Source: Antedon mediterranea
Lineage: Eukaryota; Echinodermata; Crinoidea; Comatulida; Antedonidae
Length of the DNA: 64,000 nucleotides
Assembly (NCBI RefSeq): GCF_964355755.1
Contig: NC_092678.1
Coordinates: forward strand, 12,558,922-12,622,921
Reading direction: 5' to 3'
A program made the position numbers and the translations under genes. The notes beneath the pieces were generated by a model. That model saw nothing but the letters and a program-made list of their open reading frames with translations. It made no database searches and was not told the DNA's origin. This document shows positions 4,011 through 44,500 of this stretch, piece by piece; position 1 is the stretch's first letter; each line of letters starts with the position of its first letter.

Positions 4011-5839
4011 TACTTGGACTGAAATAGTTGTGAGGCGACAGAAAGCCATTCACGGATCTAAATAATCGATCGCGTACAAAATAACAAATGTTTGTATCTG
4101 CTTTTTTCTGTGTTAAGACATACAGATTTTTTTACTAATTTGGTGCTATGACCATGCTAGTTAATGCTAGTTGTGCCATTATTGGTAAAATAGACAGTGG
4201 GACTGTCGTTATTATGCTCTCAGGTCTGAGAGGTAGGCCTATAGCTGTTACTTGGAATGCATGCTACTGATGCTAGTATTTAGTCTAAGGCCAGGGTTAA
4301 ATACTGCTATAATAGCAGCTATTTCTGACATAGCTCGAAAAGCAGTTGTGGTTGCTACGTGAAATTTATTATTGCTTAAACCTATTTATCTTAATTTTGT
4401 TAATAAAAAATTTTGATTTATGCTGTCAAAGGGAAGTTTCAGATCAACGAAACAACAGAATACTCGATCCCCTCTTAAGTTTTACTTAAATATTTTTGGA
4501 TTGTGCTGTTTAGGATGAAAATGTTATCTAAGTGTGCGGAATCCCTTGCAAAGCCTGATTGTTTTTGATAAATAATGTTATTGTTTTCAGTATGGTTTAT
4601 TCAAAATATTTTGCCGAGAACTGGAATGTCAAAAATGTATAAGTAAAATAGTTATTTTTGCTGGTTTTTTTTTCTACAGAAGTGAATAACTATAATTTAA
4701 AAACTGCAAAATGAGCTATTCAAGACTGATTTTATTCATTTCATTTTTTATGTTTTTGGGGGACAATACATCTTTAAAGGTTAGGTATTATTATTAGTTG
4801 GTATTAAGATAATCGTGGTCATCGTACATGATGTTATGCTCATTTTCGTTGTTCCAAAGCAATAATAACTACCTATTTTAATGTAGTTTCAATGGCATTA
4901 TGTTATTCTTAGCTAATAATGGCAATAGACTAACTCAACCAGATACACATAATTTCAAATTGCACATCCTTTATTATAACTGTTTTAAAAGAAATTGTAA
5001 ATATAATTTAATAAATCATATATATCGTATATCATTTTATTAACGGCATTGTACCTAACCCTGTAAATAACCTCAACTATGAACTGAACCCAATCCTCTA
5101 AATAATGTCAACTATCAACAAAAACCTAACACTCTAAAAAGTTTCAACTACTGTATCAACTAAATCTAACCCTCTAAATAATCTCAACGTTCATTATAAA
5201 AATGGGCTGTGAAACAGCAGTACTATGAGAATTTACTTTGAAGTGTGGCTTTTGCCGAGTGATGCATTTTGTAAAACACAAAATGAAAGGTTGTGCGAGG
5301 CTGCCGATCGCTTATTCCTTGGAAGGTCATGCATGCTATTTGGTGTGTTGGTTTTTGCGTTTAACAGCATAGCCATGCTCGGTGGTGAATGCAGCCTTTG
5401 ATGGTCTTCCAACAGTCAAACGCCTCCTCCCACCCAGTGGCATCTTACGCCTAGCAACAGATGTGGGCTGCACTCCAATTTTGCTAGATGTTTGAAGTCC
5501 CCTTGCCTTGACCTTACACCTCGATGCTAATGATGCCCCACTGTACTTACCAAAAGTATGCAGAGCACTGACAAGGTGACTGTGTGTAGTGAGCTTGTTA
5601 TAGTTTGAGACGAAATGCTTGACTGCCTTCTCAAACTCATGATCCCCGTTTCTCAGCTCTTGTCGGATTGAATTAAATGTACACTCTAACTGTTCTTCAA
5701 CCTGTGGCACACGCTTGCTTGGTTGGCTAAATTGATTAATCAGTGTTGCCTGTGATCTTAACGATTGGATGCGGAGGATCTGGGGGTCTTGTAATTGTCC
5801 CATATGGTGTGCGCCACCTTTAGCTGGGGTTGCATCATC

Positions 5840-21354: not shown

Positions 21355-21382
<28 letters not shown>
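21355..21382. repeat. TA microsatellite
   Basis: About 13 TA dinucleotides separating the LINE from the tRNA-bearing repeats. Confidence 0.9.
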
Positions 21383-21387
<5 letters not shown>

Positions 21388-21495
21388 ACAAGAGGCAAAG
21401 AACATTAATTCCAAACCGCCCGGTGATATACTGAAATTTAATTAATTAATTTGAAACGATAAAGATGATGAAATCTGTGAGAATGAGAAAAAGTC

Positions 21496-21566
21496 GCCCC
21501 AACCGAGACTCGAACTCGGACCGCCTGCTTGATATGCAGATGTCCTAACCATTAGACCACTGGGGC
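21496..21566 (-). tRNA. tRNA-like sequence, apparent anticodon AUC (copy 1)
   Basis: The 71-nt minus-strand sequence folds as a full cloverleaf. The acceptor GCCCCAG pairs with TTGGGGC, the D arm is GTCT/GGAC, the anticodon arm is TCTGC-ATATCAA-GCAGG, and the T arm is CCGAG-TTCGAGT-CTCGG. A-box (TGGTCTAATGG) and B-box (GTTCGAGTC) words are present. The anticodon position reads ATC, which would decode GAU (Asp). Eukaryotes normally read Asp codons with GUC, so this is more likely a SINE head than a working tRNA gene. Confidence 0.5.
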
Positions 21567-21859
21567 TTTCATGGTATTGTTCGAACTCGATTGGATAGCG
21601 ACTCTTTAACATTCTCGGCGTGGTACGGCGGAACAGTACTAGTCCTCAGTTGTACGCACGTGCAACAGAGATCAAATTGACACGCCCTCATCTTTCAGTA
21701 TTTTTATTCACGAGGCGGGATCTCCGAAGAGATACTTTTATATATATAAACACAAGAGGCAAAGAACATTAATTCCAAACCGCCCGGTGATATACTGAAA
21801 TTTAATTAATTAATTTGAAACGATAAAGATGAGGAAATCTGTGAGAATGAGAAAAAGTC

Positions 21860-21930
21860 GCCCCAACCGAGACTCGAACTCGGACCGCCTGCTTGATATG
21901 CAGATGTCCTAACCATTAGACCACTGGGGC
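21860..21930 (-). tRNA. tRNA-like sequence, apparent anticodon AUC (copy 2)
   Basis: Identical in fold and sequence to the copy 364 bp upstream, and part of the same tandem unit. It has no stronger claim to be a functional tRNA gene. Confidence 0.5.
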
Positions 21931-22337
21931 TTTCATGGTATTGTTCGAACTCGATTGGATAACGACTCTTTAACATTCTCGGCGTGGTACGGCGGAACAG
22001 TACTAGTCCTCAGTTGTACGCACGTGCAACAGAGATCAAATTGATACGCCCTCATCTTTCAGTATTTTTATTCACGAGGCGGGATCTCCGAAGAGATACT
22101 TTTATATATATAAAAACACAAGAAGCAAAGAACATTAATTCCAAACCGCCCGGTGATATACTGAAATTTAATTAATTCATTTGAAACGATAAAGATGAGG
22201 AAATCTGTGAGAATGAGAAAAAGTCGCTAAATTACTAAATTGCAGATCCAAACAGTTTATCTAAAACAATAGGCTATTGTATACGACTTCCTGATGACTC
22301 ACTCTTATTAAGCACTATGAGACAACTGTGTCACTTA

Positions 22338-22412
22338 TGTTTTATATTTCACCTGAAGAGTGCGGCCAGCTACATGCTGGTCGTACGAAACAAATTTGTA
22401 GTGATTAAAACA
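22338..22412 (+). ncRNA. type I hammerhead ribozyme
   Basis: All hammerhead core elements are present in order. CTGAAGA (22353-22359) is followed by an 11-bp stem II with loop TACAT (22360-22386), GAA (22387-22389), a short stem III (ACAAATTTGT) and A at 22400 as the cleavage-site nucleotide. Stem I then closes the fold: CAC-T pairs with GTGA next to the core, and after an internal loop TGTTTT (22338-22343) pairs with AAAACA (to 22412). The short stem III and the internal loop in stem I are typical of ribozymes in metazoan retrozymes and Penelope-like elements. Cleavage would fall after 22400. Activity is predicted, not shown. Confidence 0.8.
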
Positions 22413-22437
22413 ATGAAGTAACCAAGTTTTCTGCTGT

Positions 22438-22469
<32 letters not shown>

Positions 22470-22510
22470 GTTTTATATTTCACCTGAAGAGTGCGGCCAG
22501 CTACATGCTG
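22338..22510 (+). mobile_element. retrozyme or Penelope-type repeat, 131-bp period
   Basis: The 42 bases starting TGTTTTATATTTCACCTGAA at 22338 recur at 22469-22510, 131 bp downstream. The second copy stops in the middle of stem II and passes straight into the sequence before the plexin start codon. A TA microsatellite (22443-22468) lies between them. Tandem hammerhead monomers are the hallmark of retrozymes; a Penelope terminal repeat is the alternative. Confidence 0.65.
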
Positions 22511-22552
22511 TCTAATTTCAGAGACCATCAATTTTATTATCCGAGTATCAAC

Positions 22553-23587
22553 ATGACTTGTTCAGGAATATTAATTGTGTTTCTCGTATGTTTTGTAATG
22601 TTTCTGACAACATGTCAACAATCTGTCGACCCTGTACTTCTTCAATTTATATCATATAAAAATAAAGATTTGTATCACATAAAAATACATAATACAACAG
22701 GAGATATCTATATAGGAGCTAAAAACTCACTGTACAGACTGTCAGAAGATTTTAACATCATTGCTAATATTTCAACATGTTCATCAGATGATTGTGGTAA
22801 CATAAATAAAATATTAGAAATTGATTATGATCGTGACAGCTTGATCACGTGTGGAGGAGAAAACAACGGAAGATGTGATGGAAGATCTCTTTTGGATTTA
22901 ACTTTTGATGGAAGTAATTTAGTTGATGAAGTAGTGAGTAAACTGTCAGCAGTTGGAATCATTGCACCCGGTGTGTTGGATGATAGAGATGATCACTTAA
23001 TCAGTCAAAATGTTTTATATGTTTCATCTGGGCATACATCATTTGATCCAGTAGTGTATTCTTACATGTATATAAATGCCAGAAGAGATCTTGATACTGA
23101 GCAGCTATTTAGAGTCACTAACACTGAATGTAATGGTATCAAACCATCTTACAATAAACCTATACAATTTCAAACCGCACTTGATTATGAAGGATACACT
23201 TACTTTGTTTCATTTAGACCCAATGATACTGATTACTTTTATTCACGACTGCGTCGTGTTTGTCAAGAAAATTCATTTCATACACTATCCGAGATTTACA
23301 CTCATTGTGTTGTAAATAATGTTGATTACAACTTGGTACAAGCCATGTCCGTTGGTCCTGTAGGAGCTGACTTAGCTACCTCACCAGGCCTACAAGCTGG
23401 AGATAATGTCTTGTATGGAGTATTTGCTAAAGGTGATGGAAGTGGAGTTGCAACTGGACAATCTGCAATGTGTATTTACAAGTGGAATGATATAGAAGAT
23501 GCATTCTTCAAAGCCTTAAATGGATGTATAAACGTTAATAATGATATCCATACTCTAGACTATGCAGATGATGCAGATTGTCCACAA
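22553..23587 (+). CDS. plexin exon 1: signal peptide and first part of sema
   Basis: 345 codons beginning MTCSGILIVFLV, a hydrophobic signal sequence, then SVDPVLLQFISYKNKDLYHI. Sema landmarks include GDIYIGAKNSLYRLSED, CGGENNGRC, RVCQEN and YGVFAKGDGSG. The donor is CAA|GTATGA in phase 0. The 5' side is occupied by the hammerhead repeat, which may have replaced part of the original 5' untranslated region. Confidence 0.88.
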
Positions 23588-26500
23588 GTATGATAATTAT
23601 TTTCAAACTTAAATTATTTAGTCTTGTTATTTATTGGTGTGGGTTATGCTTGTTTGACCATACTTGTCCAAATTATTATGATTTGCTTTCAATAATAAGA
23701 TATGTGAAAAAGGTGATTTATTATAATAATTGATTTATAGTTAAAGAATTTAATTTAATAATCTACTGTAAAATGTTTTTCCTTGATAATGAAGTCTTTC
23801 AGTTTTACTGCTGCTGATATTCAGTCATTAATGTGTCCATCAATTGATGGTAGAGCATTGTTCAGACGTTATTCACAAGGCATCTACACAGAAGCAGCAG
23901 TATCAGAGGCATTGCTAACAGTTAATGATAAAATACTGACATCAGTGACTACAGCAATTGAAGAGAATCGAACAATAGCATTTATAGGCACATATAATGG
24001 ACAACTTATTAAGGTTAGTAGGCCTACAAATTGTTTAATTTGAAATTCTGAAAATTGATTATAAAGGTACAGAGACACTTCAACACTTTTTATATCAATA
24101 TAAAAAGTCTTCACTAAAGAATCGCAAATGCCACCTAAACAAATAATTGATCATCTTTTAAAACTCACTTGAGGACAAAAAAGACAAAAATGAAATATGA
24201 TTGTTATGTTTTGTGTATCAATATTGTCCTTGTCGACTTACTTTATTCAAATTAAAATGAAAGAAAACAAAATTGGTGGGACGATCAACATTCTTTACAT
24301 GGCCTACTTAGCTCTTACCCTTCCTACAATAAAGTTTGAATGAACTAGGTCTTTATATAGGTAAATTTATTCCAAAAAATGTAACAAAACCACGCACTGT
24401 GGATTTACAAAATCTGATACGTTCTTATATGCATGCATCCTACAACAACAAAAAATATAAAATAATGTAAAAATAAAGATTCAAAATAACAAAAGCCACT
24501 TATTTCTGTTGCTGGCAATCTCACGCAAATTAATTAAGTCGTTAAAATTATTTATCTTAAAATTTCAGATAAATAAATCATTTCTAAGTGTACTTAACAG
24601 ATTGGTTTGATGTTTTCCAATTCGCCCTTTTATTGGATTAGAGTGTACTATACCAAACACCAATGCTGAAAAAGCAGGAGTATCTTCACTCATTCTAAGT
24701 ATATGGCCAAGCATAGACCACCTAAGTTTATTTACATTCTCAGATAAAGGTTTAGTATTTGTTACCAAATATAACTTATTATTGCAAATCTTTTTCAGAT
24801 ATTTCACATTAATAATAGTTCTTAAGTGGGACCTATGACAGGTATCAATCAATTTTTTTTCATAACAACTTTGGGAGCAGACCAGCTATTGCAATTATAC
24901 AATAAAATAGATACAACTAATACATTATATAACTTGAGTTTCAAATCAGTTGCAATATTTTTTTAAAGCCACACATTATTAAAGTTGTTAAATGCTACAT
25001 TTGCTAATATAATTCTATGCTTAACATCCTTAGTAGTATCTAAAAATGAACCTAAGACCTTATGAGACCTCCATACTTCAGATTTTGGGTCCTTACTATC
25101 AATAAACACATGGTTAAACTCAGTCTTGCTTTCATTAATAAATAAATTCCAATCTTTAAAAACGTTAACAGCAATTGGCAAGACATTATCAAGTTCGATC
25201 TTGAGTTCAGAAAGAAAGTCAATATCGTCAGCATAGGAGAATTCAAGCGGGAAACATTTAATGTCAATTGGTGGATTAGGTCTGAAAGTAGTCATACCTC
25301 TTAACTGGTACTAAGCTCCAGCAAATGTGATAGTAAAAAAAATCCTGATAAACAATCGCCTTGAAACGAACCTAATACAGATTCAAACGAACTGGAAAGT
25401 TTACCACCAACTTTTACTTGTAGTTTGGTATTTGACAACATAAACCTAACTAGGCGTATGTCATCGTCAGAACAACCAGCATCGCTTAGTAAACGTAACA
25501 CAGTATCACGTTTAATAGTATCAAACGCAGAAGACATGTCACGTCTAAACCCATTTTGTAGAATTCCCATTTCTTTTGTTTGACTATAGATGTTAATATT
25601 CTTTGCGCCCATACAATATCAGCACAGCTCCGACCTCTCTTATAAGCACTTTGGAAGGATCCTGTATAATTGTTAACGTTTTCCTCAATACGTTTATAAA
25701 TAATCAATGACATTACTTTGCGAATAACGTTGCTCAATGTAAAAGGCCTTAGACTTTTACATGGTCCCTTCGGCTTTCCAGGTTTTTGCAGGGGTGTAAT
25801 TAAACCTTCAGTTATACTCTGCAGATGTATATTTCTTTCAAAACATTGATTAATGATGCAAGCGTAAAGCACATAGACGTCATCACTCACTAGGTCTTTA
25901 GTATTTGTTAAATAAGTTGTTTTCTTCCAATTTGTCAGGCTCAGTTAACAAACAAAACATCATCTAGAGTGTATGAAACTATCACCATAGATACAGGTCA
26001 AGAGGTCAGATCAGACACATTTATAGATGAAACATCTAATTATATAATAGCACTCACAGCAAAAAAGGTCAGTTTATTCGAATTTTATGGTGGTATGTTT
26101 ATCCTAATTTATTTTTATTATTTGATTTTTTTAAATATTTTTCCTGTACATCCACATATAAAGATTATTATTTATTTTATTTCATTTAGGCGTATTTCGC
26201 TATTTTTTAAATTCCACAAATTAAAAAAATAAAAAGAAAACAAGAAGAAAATGTTCCCCGTCCCTTGTCTAAGCTAAGATGTATAAATGCAGGATTTTTC
26301 ATTATTTTCATTATTTCATGCCATTCAAGAATTGTGCCTTTACGTAAATTGATAATATAGATTACTGTTTATACTTTTGATTAGTTGGTCAAGCTACAAG
26401 TTGCAAACTGCAGTTGGTTTATCACATGTGATGAGTGTATCAGACCAGGTCAACTAGATGCAGATCCTTATTGTGGGTGGTGTACACTATACAAAAAGTA

Positions 26501-32500: not shown

Positions 32501-35500
32501 CAACAATTTACTTTACTAAATTGACTCAACACCACATTGTTCAAACAACAGCATGATATAATCTTTAAATTACAGTCAATTTGTTTGTATACTATAAATC
32601 CCTACTTCATGCCCTTGATTGTTCTGGTGTCATTCTGTGCAAATAATATTATACCCAATTTTTTGGTGCCAAACCTGTAGATAATGAGTATTTGTTTGCA
32701 TAATTATTAATTACTGTTTTTAGTTTATCCTTAAATGTTATCATGACATACGGTATGTCTTGGCATAGTACATAAATAATATTAATGTTATCTACTCTCA
32801 TCCAATCAGGCTTCGAGACGTGTTTTCAAAACCTAGTGAATAAAACCAATTGATTAAATATCATGTGTCAGTTAGCATACAGCCATTTATACATTCAAAC
32901 GCTGTCAAAATATGATAAAAAATACGTATCATTCTTTTTTTATGTTTTTTTTCAGCATTTTAGTATTCAAAACAAAGTCACAAAGTCATAACTCATAGTA
33001 ACACCTTCGTAATATGCTAATGATTATGATATTTTATCAGTTAATGCTTCATTTTTACATTAATTTCTCTATTTGTATTTACCAGTCACATTGTACAAGT
33101 GTAATGTTCAACGTCCAGACTGCAGTCGATGTTATTCAATGAACACCACTAGGTCTGGACTTGATTGTGTCTGGTGTAATGGAGACCAATGTTCCTACAG
33201 TCCATTCTGTTCATCAATTGTGAATGAATGTCCATCACCTGTCATTATTCAGGTAATTGGAATCATTTTATCTTCCTTCAAAATCCAGCACCCTTGCTTA
33301 ACTTAAATTTGTTTGAAATGGTGTTTGCTAGTCGCCCTCTATTACTCTTTCATAGTGTATACATTAGAGTTATATTTGTGGCAGAAAACATTAATTAGTC
33401 TGAAAATTAGGGGAAAAGGTCAACCAAAGAGTATAACATGATATTTAAGGAATTTGTTTTTTTAAATGATTACATCAGTCATGTTTTTTTAAAAATACAG
33501 TATCCATCATGCTTAGTTCTAATTATTATTTTCAGACTCTTCCTATCTCAGTTGCTACAGTAACTACTCAACCTGAAACTGATTTCACAGATTTCATTGA
33601 ACTATTCGGAATTGATTTTGGACAGATGATGTCAGATATTGACAACATAATGATAGATAACAAAGAATGTGTAATAGTTGCTGATGGATTTAACATAGCT
33701 TTACAAAGGTATTTTAAACAAAATTTAATTTAACATTAATTATGCAGCACTAAGTCTCTGTACTTGTTTCTGGTGGGATCCTTCTGGCTCTACATAAGCA
33801 AAGTGTTACACAGGACCAACGGATTAACATCTCATCCGAAAGATGGTGCGCTATATTCATGTAATCCAAGCCGTAAGTTAGAACACAGAGAGATGGCGAT
33901 TAAACCGTGAACCAAACCTAAGTACAAATCACAACTGTAACTTATTAAACATAACATGTATCCTTGCTATTTGATTGTTTGGTTTATTAAGTAACATGTG
34001 CCATGCATTATTTCGATCCATCCTCGCAGTCAGTGTAACTTGGTAAATTATGTATTTTATATTTATTCTTATTTTTTATGTATAATATCAGTAAAAAGTA
34101 AATGTTATTGTGTATTATGCACAGTGTGAAATGTAAAGCTCCTGTGTTTGATAGCGTCTCTCAACGTGACGTCATCATAACTGTTCAAGGAAAGACAAGT
34201 GCACCTGTAGTCATACTCTATTAGGTATATTTTCTCACTCCAATTTCACAATTGGTTTAATCCTTGCCTTTATGTAGAAGAGTCAACCTTAATAAATATT
34301 TTTATATAATTACTAAAGTTATTTTAAAATGTTTATTCTACAGTAATCATGTATATTTGTTGTAAACTTGTGGTATTCATGATATTAAAATGAACACTAG
34401 AACCAGCGAAGAGTGAAGATACATTCACTTATTTCTTCTACTTTCACTCTTTTTTCTACTTTCACTCTTTTTTCTACTTTCATTCTTTTCTTTTACTTTC
34501 ACTCTTTCTTCTACTTTCACTCTTTTCTTCTACATTCACTCTTTTCTTCTACTTTCACTCTTTCCTTCTAGTTTCACTCTTTTCTTCTACTTTCACTCTT
34601 TTCTTCTGCTTTCACTCTTTTCTTTTACTTTCACTATTTTATTCTACTTTCAATCTTTTCTTCTACATTCACTCTTTTCTTCTGCTTTCACTCTTTTCTT
34701 TTACTTTCACTCTTTTCTTCTACTTTCAATCTTTTCTTCTACATTCACTCTTTTCTTCTAGTTTCACTCTTTCTCTTTACTTTCACTCCTTTCTTCTGCT
34801 TTCACTCTTTTCTTCTACTTTCACTCTTTCCTTCTACTTTCACTCTTTTTTTCTACATTCAGTCTTTTCTCCTACTTTCACTCTTTTCTTCTACTTTCAC
34901 TCTTTTCTTTTACTTTCACTCTTTCTTCTGCTTTCACTCTTTTCTTTTACTTTCACTCTTTTCTTCTACTTTCACTTTTTTCTTCTACATTCACTCTTTT
35001 CTTCTACTTTCGCTCTTTTCTTCTACTTTAATTTTTACTTCTACCTTCCCTCTTTTTTTATACATTCAATCCTGCTAGAACAAGATCAGAGTGAAATTAA
35101 TGCAATTTCATTCTTCTCCTCTACTTTCACACCTGCTAGAACAAGATAAGAGTGAAATTAATGCAATTTCACTCTTCTCCTATACTTTCACTCCTGCTAG
35201 TAAAAGAGAAGGATATTAACAATTTATAAAATAGTTTCCGCTGACCAATTTTTATACTATAAATATATTATCTTTTAAACATGTTATTATGCTTGTATAA
35301 AAACATTTGTTTTTTTAAATATTTTTAAAAACAATTATTAATAATATATATAGTAATACCTGTGTTTTATTACTAAACATTTTTCTTTTCATTTTAGAAT
35401 CCAGTTATATCTGAGTTGAGACCAAGGTTTGGCATAAAAGCTGGTGGAACTACACTAACATTCAGTGGATCCAATCTGAACACTGGGAATGACATTATGG

Positions 35501-41500: not shown

Positions 41501-44500
41501 TTCTTTATTCTGTAGATTTCAATTAAATACATAATAACCTTTTTTTTCTAAATCTAGAATGGAGAGTGAATGTAGATCAACGAATTATTTTACAAGATAC
41601 CGATTTACAGACAGAAAGAAAACTAAAAACAATTGCAGATTTTGGAGTAATATTACTGTAGTATTTTTTGTTTTGTAATAAATTAACTGTTAGAAAAATG
41701 TATTAAGCCTATAATAATAGGCTCAATAGACATAGGTTGTGTATAGGCCGGACGTCAGTTGACACAAGCTTAACATGACGCATGCACCTTAACTAATTAA
41801 TAAAAATACTTTTCTACACCAGCACGTTAGCAAACAAATAAATCAATCACTAGTCGGATCTTAAATTTGAAAAATTATTTTTTTTTCAGATTCAAAATAA
41901 TGCAGTGGTAGCGTTTGTAGACGTTTGGAAGGAAGATATCAACGCGTCAGACCAGTATGATACAATTAAGCAACCAATAGTTGCTAGATATGGTAATAAT
42001 GATAATATGTATTGGTATACATACTACATTCCAATTGAACCTAAACCAGAATCTACTAATATATTTCAACTTAAAAAAGAATCAGTTTCTTCTTATTTTA
42101 TGTAATTATAATTGTTCAATAATAAATTAATAATATAAAAAAACAAACAATACTGTTTATAAAGTCACGGCCATTTATGTACTGAAGATTTCTTATTGGT
42201 AGTACTTTTTATTTCGGCAAACAGATTAACAAACAACATCAAAAAGCTTTATTCAGCCAATGAGTGGCAGAATAGACCAATTTATTTGTTGTTGTTTGTG
42301 CCATTGCTTTATTATTGTCTATGATCTAACTTTACTTTTTAAGAAACTAACATCTACCAAACATCAATCAATGAAGATGGCACTTTCCACATTGTGAGTG
42401 ATTTTAGTTCAAATACTTTCAAACATTTACAGTCACCATTAATTGAATAAACAACAAACAATTGATATAAATACATTTTATTGCTTATTGGACATCTGGT
42501 AATGAACTGTGAACTAAATATTCATTAAAGTAGCTTTACGCTAGTCGATAATTTGACTACACATCAGTTACTGTTGGTCGTTTAGGCGTTCTAGTTAAGA
42601 AAATATATTTAGCATACATTGCTTGTCATAACTAGAGACTTGGCAAGTGTAGTTGGTCAGTTTTGATTTTGAAATTGACTTTTTTTAGTTGGAAGGAAAT
42701 GTGTACACGGGTGCTTATGATGCAATGGACGGCGAGAAGCCAAATATTGATGAATCCATCTTTGAAAGGTTAACTGAAACTAAGGTAGGAATAAATAAAA
42801 ACAACATTTGTTGATTTAAACTATTTTTAAACAGTTGGGTTTTAATAGGATGCAACTTGACATGCATATGAGACGTATCACTCTAATGTATCTTGTTGTT
42901 GGTCAAACTTGTATTGTCCGTCTATTGTGTCCTCGAAACTTTTTTTTATGGGAGTAAACCCGCTTTTATTGTTGTTCTGCATATATCGAACATCATTGGT
43001 TTGGTTTTCCTTAACATTTTACAGTAATAAGTATTATTATTATCTCTCAATTCCACAGCAAATTTACCAACAGCATGTTGACTCCATAATGAATAATGTA
43101 TTCAGCTCATCATCGAACAACATCCACCTACCGCTATTTGTTAAATATCTTTTTGATTTTCTGGATAACATGGCGACTAAGCATGGTGTTAGTATCAATG
43201 AATTGAAGATATGGAAAAACAACAGGTATTGAAATTGCAATACATTGCATGTTAGAAAATGATATATTTAGGTTTTACTCAAAGCTCACAATGGTGTATC
43301 TACGATTTACATCGAAGAATTGGCTCCTAAGATGTCTGATTATTTAACATTAAAAGAAACAAGGTTAAGAAATTTAAATTATAAATATTCAAAATTCAAA
43401 TTAAAAGTGTAGGCCTAATAATTTATGTTTATATATGAGCGTTTATTTCTTCTTTTATAATGAGCATTTTCCAAATTATTTGTCTTACAATTTCAATATC
43501 AGCACGTATTTCTTCCATTTTCATACAATATAATCAAAATAGCAAGAAAAATCAGAAGTGGACTAGATCAATAATCATATTTTTATCCTTTTTTAGTTTA
43601 GCTGAAATGTTTTGGTTAAGAATTCTGAGAAACCCTGCTTATGTCTGTGACATTCAACAAACGCCCCCTATTGATATTACTCTCGGTGTCATCTCTGCTG
43701 TTTTCCGAGAATCTTGGTCAATTGAGCTGTTTGGTTTTAAAAAGGTAAAACGCAAAAGTCAATGTAATTATTTTTATATTGTATGGCTGCGTATTTTAAT
43801 GTGCGACGACATCTTACCGAGACCGTTTAATGAATATCAGTTTACTACTTTAGCTTCTGTTCAGAATCATATTTGTTCATATTATTGCTTTAGTTTTATA
43901 TTTGCACGATTTTGTTGAAATTAAGAACTAACTGTAGACCTACAGTTTGTCCAAATCTGAAATATCATAAATACACTTTGTTTTGATTATTTGGATTCTA
44001 AACCGTCACATTCGCTTCACTGTTTATTCATGTAGACCACCCTACAGTTTCAAAATTATAATTAATATTTATATCTTTATACATATTATTATGCAAGCAG
44101 TTACAAGCTACCGTACTGAGTTTTAATAATTATTTTGTAATATTTCATCAGCCATTTAATTTAAAAGTCTATTTTTGGTGGAAGTCATGCCAAGTTTGTT
44201 CTTTAGTGCTTTTTTAACTTTCATTCTTTATTTCAAAGAGTTCGCCAAGTCATCGACAGATGTATGTAAAAGAGATTCCACGATACCGCCAACTTGTTAC
44301 TAAGTTCTATAGTGACATCAAGCATACCCCAACTTGTGATCGCATGAACGTTATCGATGAAGTAAATTCTCTTATACAGGTATGTAAAAAGACTATCAAT
44401 ATTGCTATTTCTCAAAGAAACTAATAGGCATTGGTTGAGGCATATGTCAATAAACAAACATATAAACTAATAGGCATTGGTTGAGGCATATGCCAATAAG

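Follow-up and report, generated by a model that had tools for sequence, protein, structure and literature searches.

The window analysed here is a 64,000-nucleotide stretch of the genome of the crinoid Antedon mediterranea (C9:12558922–12622921), in which a hammerhead ribozyme lies a short distance upstream of the first coding exon of a plexin gene. This exon (22553–23590, forward strand) encodes Sema sequence, with matches to Pfam Sema (3e-6) and to Plexin A in the PDB (4e-27). Open frames further downstream, up to position 44421 on the same strand, match PSI, TIG, RBD and RasGAP, and the first-pass annotation had named the gene correctly. It had also proposed, as speculation, that the ribozyme affects plexin expression. 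Our analysis recasts this supposed plexin regulator as a retrotransposon insertion: the ribozyme is very probably the 3′ end of a 5′-truncated Penelope-like element (PLE), of which the window holds a remnant.

The ribozyme occupies positions 22339–22411 of the forward strand and is supported by its sequence, its fold, a structural descriptor and a covariance model. Type I hammerheads carry, in this order, CUGANGA, GAA, an A-U pair that closes helix III and an NUH cleavage triplet. The window ribozyme fits this rule both by descriptor and by sequence. Its catalytic strand, CTGAAGA (22353–22359), is followed by helix II and its TACAT loop (22360–22386), with 11 bp, two of them G-U, between the arms 22360–22370 and 22376–22386. 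GAA (22387–22389), a helix III of ACA and TGT around an AATT loop (22390–22399) and the cleavage-site A (22400) complete the core, which places the predicted cut between A22400 and G22401. Helix I is open-ended and consists of an inner part (TCAC/GTGA, 22349–22352 with 22401–22404) and an outer part (GTTTTA/TAAAAC, 22339–22344 with 22406–22411), separated by a TATT/T internal loop. All three helices are present, helix III having just 3 bp and being missing from the centroid fold. The first-pass annotation had placed the core, the helices and A22400 exactly here. Its word ‘canonical’ is generous for a hammerhead with an 11-bp helix II; because helix II is this long, the usual contact between loops I and II, and with it the usual tertiary geometry, is doubtful. 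Judged by its sequence, the site is a real and intact type I hammerhead, for which self-cleavage is predicted.

The minimum free energy (MFE) of the window ribozyme is −25 kcal/mol (z, −4.47), and none of 200 shuffles was equal or better. A descriptor of the core and three helices, composed with the window site already known to us, matched once across both strands of the 64-kb window and not at all in 100 dinucleotide shuffles of it. We also built a covariance model from the ribozymes of two sister families alone (B and C; the window ribozyme belongs to family A). The window ribozyme was its top match (E = 1.5e-6; next match, 0.47), although these E-values are rough and the training ribozymes are hammerheads by our descriptor. 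When a single sequence from each of the three families was aligned manually, 38 of 39 pair cells were standard and 4 of 13 pairs had changed on both sides.

Some results weigh against this identification. The first-pass annotation had offered a failure to match the type I hammerhead model of Rfam as a refutation, and this was the outcome: Rfam returned no hammerhead in the window at the gathering score, none in 21800–23000 at E ≤ 1 and none in 22325–22425 at E ≤ 10. The MFE folds of the family C ribozymes contain no hammerhead, and neither in family B nor in family C did the ribozymes fold better than shuffled sequence (z of −0.27 and −0.70 for two ribozymes of family C, and −0.27 for one of family B). 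In the MFE fold of the 321 nt that surround the window ribozyme (22232–22552), 9 bp of helix II are retained and the hammerhead helix I does not form; activity in this context is therefore uncertain. The Rfam scan, which had no positive control, also failed on the sister-family hammerheads in L143, L145 and L147. Because it thus misses ribozymes with intact cores, the Rfam negative is not decisive; the test looks insensitive to such hammerheads, which suggests that the missing match does not exclude one. The case for a hammerhead rests on the core, on the pairs changed on both sides and on context, and single-strand folding alone is insufficient for it.

The sequence around the ribozyme identifies its probable source. 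We searched the whole genome (354 Mb in 18 contigs) for related sequence. Homology between the window and longer copies begins at 22232, within an open reading frame (ORF) of which the window retains the last 10 codons, LLNCRSKQFI, and the stop (22232–22264); the same C terminus is found in open frames at L013 and L025. Because homology starts at 22232 and this ORF end persists, we read the window copy as an insertion that is 5′-truncated at that point. The ORF end is followed by the 3′ untranslated region of the element (22265–22337), by the ribozyme, by a 3′ end in common with other copies (22412–22442) and by (TA)n (22443–22469), either a tail or a target microsatellite, which is also found 3′ of many other copies.

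With up to 3 mismatches allowed, the genome holds 126 matches to the 54-nt ribozyme core and none to a reversed-pattern control; 77 of the 100 matches listed are exact. At the same threshold, a 35-mer across the cut occurs 174 times and a 40-mer just 3′ of the ribozyme 189 times. The homology of other copies extends about 1.5 kb upstream into the ORF, and 74 nt separate the stop codon from the ribozyme. These copies are 97–99% identical to the window copy, both overall and in the 3′ untranslated region, and their 5′ truncation points are scattered. The first-pass annotation had overlooked this probable mobile-element origin, in which a Penelope-like 3′ end brings with it a core that recurs throughout the genome.

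Further properties of the copies come from a set of 114 (the 100 listed matches and 14 more, of 126–128 in all). The core is intact in 102 of the 112 alignable family A copies, a proportion biased upward by the choice of copies on similarity; the two left out, one of them the second copy in the window, could not be aligned gap-free. The commonest core change, seen in 6 copies, falls on the G that opens GAA. Of the 114 copies, 53 have a short 3′ end that runs straight into (TA)n, 48 have a longer optional tail and 13 are of other kinds. Ribozyme pairs less than 5 kb apart are mostly head-to-head: 20 of 25 are divergent, 2 convergent and 3 tandem, an excess of divergent pairs over the expected one quarter (p = 1.2e-8). 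Head-to-head copies in L117, L003 and L102 meet at short palindromes, such as TTTCGTACGAAA, as if microhomology or self-priming had created the junctions.

Family A stop-to-stop frames reach 649 codons (L025), and their protein identity is approximately 60% to family B and 57% to family C. According to the descriptor, each sister family bears hammerheads of its own a short way past the ORF (family B at L026, L144 and L145; family C at L143, L146 and L147). It found no hammerhead in two of seven loci, L142 and L148, and the L142 frame stops short of the ORF end. At the family B locus L026, a repeat that runs from the last codons through the ribozyme flanks a 760-codon stop-to-stop frame on both sides, and these ribozyme-bearing repeats are pseudo-long terminal repeats (pseudo-LTRs). 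The motifs FYPSI, MGS, YRDDG and LDVT, which resemble those of reverse transcriptases, occur in all six members compared. A Cys-rich stretch, CNC..CPL..C (a pattern of our own, not the published motif), is present in five of the six, the sixth frame being cut short, and a GIY-YIG-like stretch in four, the other two frames being cut short. One member of the six matches RVT_1 in Pfam (E = 0.001). In a local hhalign comparison, the C terminus aligned with the GIY-YIG ends of other elements in the genome over 44 columns at 39% identity, with a probability of 43% and an E-value (2.6e-4) that holds for a single comparison; the L146 frame used there covers C10:24178159–24178263, above the PF01541 cut-off. 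Pseudo-LTRs, an optional tail, head-to-head inverted copies and 5′ truncation, all features of PLE architecture, are present together. These motifs, this architecture and one weak profile match point to a probable PLE. By eye, we also noticed minimal hammerhead-like motifs (CTGATGA..GAAA, with helix III nearly nil) near (TA)n in L006 (1762–1725, reverse strand) and L025 (about 4480–4530). Minimal hammerheads, as in classical PLEs, and fuller ones seem to coexist in this genome.

The window contains a second, partial copy of the ribozyme (22467–22510, forward strand), recognized as an exact repeat and by comparison of copies. The first-pass annotation had described a repeat of 42 bases; the exact length is 44 nt (22336–22379 repeated as 22467–22510), and its spacing of 131, its end inside stem II and its distance of 43 nt from the plexin ATG at 22553 were as described. 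As also described, the copy is truncated. It breaks off within the 3′ arm of helix II and has lost most of that arm together with GAA, helix III and the cleavage site; a copy so reduced would be unable to cleave by itself. At up to 2 mismatches, (TA)n followed directly by TGTTTTATATTTCACCTGAAGAG is found in only 3 places genome-wide. The other two, L029 and L031, are insertions truncated at TATG inside (TA)n that retain the whole ribozyme region with few changes. We infer that the second copy was a separate insertion, likewise truncated at TATG, into the (TA)n of the first copy, and that its 3′ half was lost later. Should the leader remain unspliced, an in-frame ATG that this copy carries at 22505 would also lengthen plexin by 16 codons (22505–22552).

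In the proposed course of events, the 3′ end of a 5′-truncated PLE, with its own type I hammerhead aboard, entered TA-rich DNA upstream of the plexin start exon by reverse transcription. The ribozyme would then lie near plexin because a mobile element inserted there. In the cycle of the element the ribozyme may cleave multimeric or read-through RNA, and sense transcription of the window copy, if it occurs, could yield an RNA cut after A22400. We considered whether cleaved RNA is the usual template for insertion; this is unsupported, as in the part of the matches surveyed the 5′ ends of truncated copies are not clustered at 22401.

Several observations count against a PLE. Pfam gave no match at E ≤ 0.001 for the family A frames of L013 and L025 and no GIY-YIG in any of the six members at E ≤ 1; NCBIfam gave no match for two members, and a profile of the six ORF sequences had no PDB match at E ≤ 10. 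In the search that found RVT_1, unrelated families scored close to it (DUF6483, 0.0014; PGBA_N, 0.006). The C-terminal comparison that aligned locally gave no meaningful alignment in the global mode of hhalign, and a BLASTP comparison between the GIY-YIG region and a PLE-type frame reached only E = 0.088. A target-site duplication was not established for the window insertion. Nor do 5′ ends pile up at the cut: in a survey of 81 distinct rows from part of the matches listed, 43 ended at 22338–22404, 3 of them no more than 1 nt from 22401, some of the 43 being the same copy re-read, or an indel or mismatch instead of a true end.

Chance resemblance to a hammerhead would agree with the silence of Rfam and with the absence of helix I from the larger fold, but it would have to produce a descriptor match that 100 shuffled windows did not, a match at E = 1.5e-6 to a model trained without the family, and pairs that differ on both sides between families; we give it almost no credence. 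A role closer to the one first suggested is that of a co-opted regulator, in which the ribozyme is kept because it cleaves plexin pre-mRNA in the 5′ intron or leader and so tunes expression. The orientation is sense and the core is intact. Immediately 3′ of the element, the non-element flank TCTAATTTCAG (22511–22521, forward strand) is, on sequence grounds only, a plausible 3′ splice site with the acceptor TTTCAG (22516–22521), and the ribozyme would therefore sit in an intron; hammerheads within introns are on record for the human genome (PMC6155905). Yet the same 54-nt core is present 126 times in the genome, the 97–99% identity to other copies is what a recent insertion would be expected to show, and helix I is not kept in the larger fold. 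Such co-option appears very unlikely, and we judge the PLE copy to be a probable bystander at plexin.

An animal retrozyme of the non-autonomous kind, whose short tandem repeats each hold a full hammerhead and spread as small RNA circles, would share with the window a type I hammerhead with helix III, a partial tandem copy at 131 bp and low GC. Animal retrozymes are described as repeats with type I hammerheads (PMC7229834). The window copy instead runs on from the 3′ end of an ORF, and its repeat does not hold two ribozymes. In the form searched, (TA)n lies directly 5′ of the ribozyme start in only 3 genomic places, and just 3 of the 25 close pairs in the 114-copy set are tandem, the pair in the window among them. 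The 131 unit is also shorter than the 170–400 nt quoted for retrozymes. A retrozyme dimer was rejected, since half of the ribozyme is missing from the second copy, and the first forms one piece with the end of an ORF. We consider a retrozyme as improbable as co-option, and favour a truncated PLE.

Other repeats lie near the insertion and within the plexin gene. Upstream, a 364-bp unit is present in 2.3 copies (21375–22227) with (TA)n at its end, and holds tRNA-Asp genes (anticodon ATC) on the reverse strand at 21495–21566 and 21859–21930. The same unit adjoins PLE copies elsewhere, with its tRNA in L025 (1937–2008) and its body in L002, L011 and L026. It looks like a tRNA-headed element of the short interspersed nuclear element type that has (TA)n target sites in common with the PLE. 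Inside the plexin gene lies a 19-bp tandem array of 34.4 copies (34420–35068), and by eye we found ORF fragments similar to the reverse transcriptase of long interspersed nuclear elements in a plexin intron (24565–25944, reverse strand).

Hammerheads of Penelope-like elements were reportedly described by Cervera and de la Pena in 2014 and by Luense et al. in 2017. PLE hammerheads are already known, and the window element probably adds a new case, with a helix III and a long helix II. In published descriptions, PLE hammerheads are type I, as here, have their place in the pseudo-LTRs of these retrotransposons, and are usually minimal, without helix III or loop–loop contacts and with a role given as unknown (PMC7761336, PMC6155905). 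In contrast, helix III here has 3 bp and helix II of family A has 11 bp, which is a modest variation. What the crinoid genome offers is a probable PLE group in which the ribozymes of three families have all retained helix III while some of their pairs differ on both sides. One of these sources leaves the role of the PLE hammerhead open and records a proposal that PLEs move retrozymes (PMC7761336). For both points, a group whose hammerhead is fuller should make a suitable test. It is conceivable, if unlikely, that the hammerheads of these Cys-rich, YRDDG-type PLE families, with a true helix III, stand midway between the minimal kind of other PLEs and the kind found in animal retrozymes, and that the families themselves are the autonomous elements from which retrozymes descend or which drive their movement.

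The closest systems share different parts of this arrangement. The non-LTR retrozymes of animals have a type I hammerhead whose helix III is short, as here, but they consist of small tandem repeats that hold no ORF, whereas the window ribozyme is attached to an ORF end (PMC7229834). Pseudo-LTRs, an optional tail, head-to-head inverted copies and palindromic junctions are given as PLE features in a source that also places a Cys-rich domain between the reverse transcriptase and the endonuclease of Neptune-like PLEs (PMC3846280). The CNC..CPL..C stretch resembles that domain in motif and likewise lies between the reverse-transcriptase-like and GIY-YIG-like parts. The anole PLE PAc combines a hammerhead, a pseudo-LTR, an AT-rich target and a ‘tail’, all of which we find here; its reverse transcription starts internally, and in vitro its protein can extend either strand of the target (PMC11167929). 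A difference is that, in the crinoid element, the ribozyme of the 3′ repeat sits 74 nt past the stop codon. By analogy, extension of both strands, as by the anole protein, would fit the head-to-head pairs seen in this genome.
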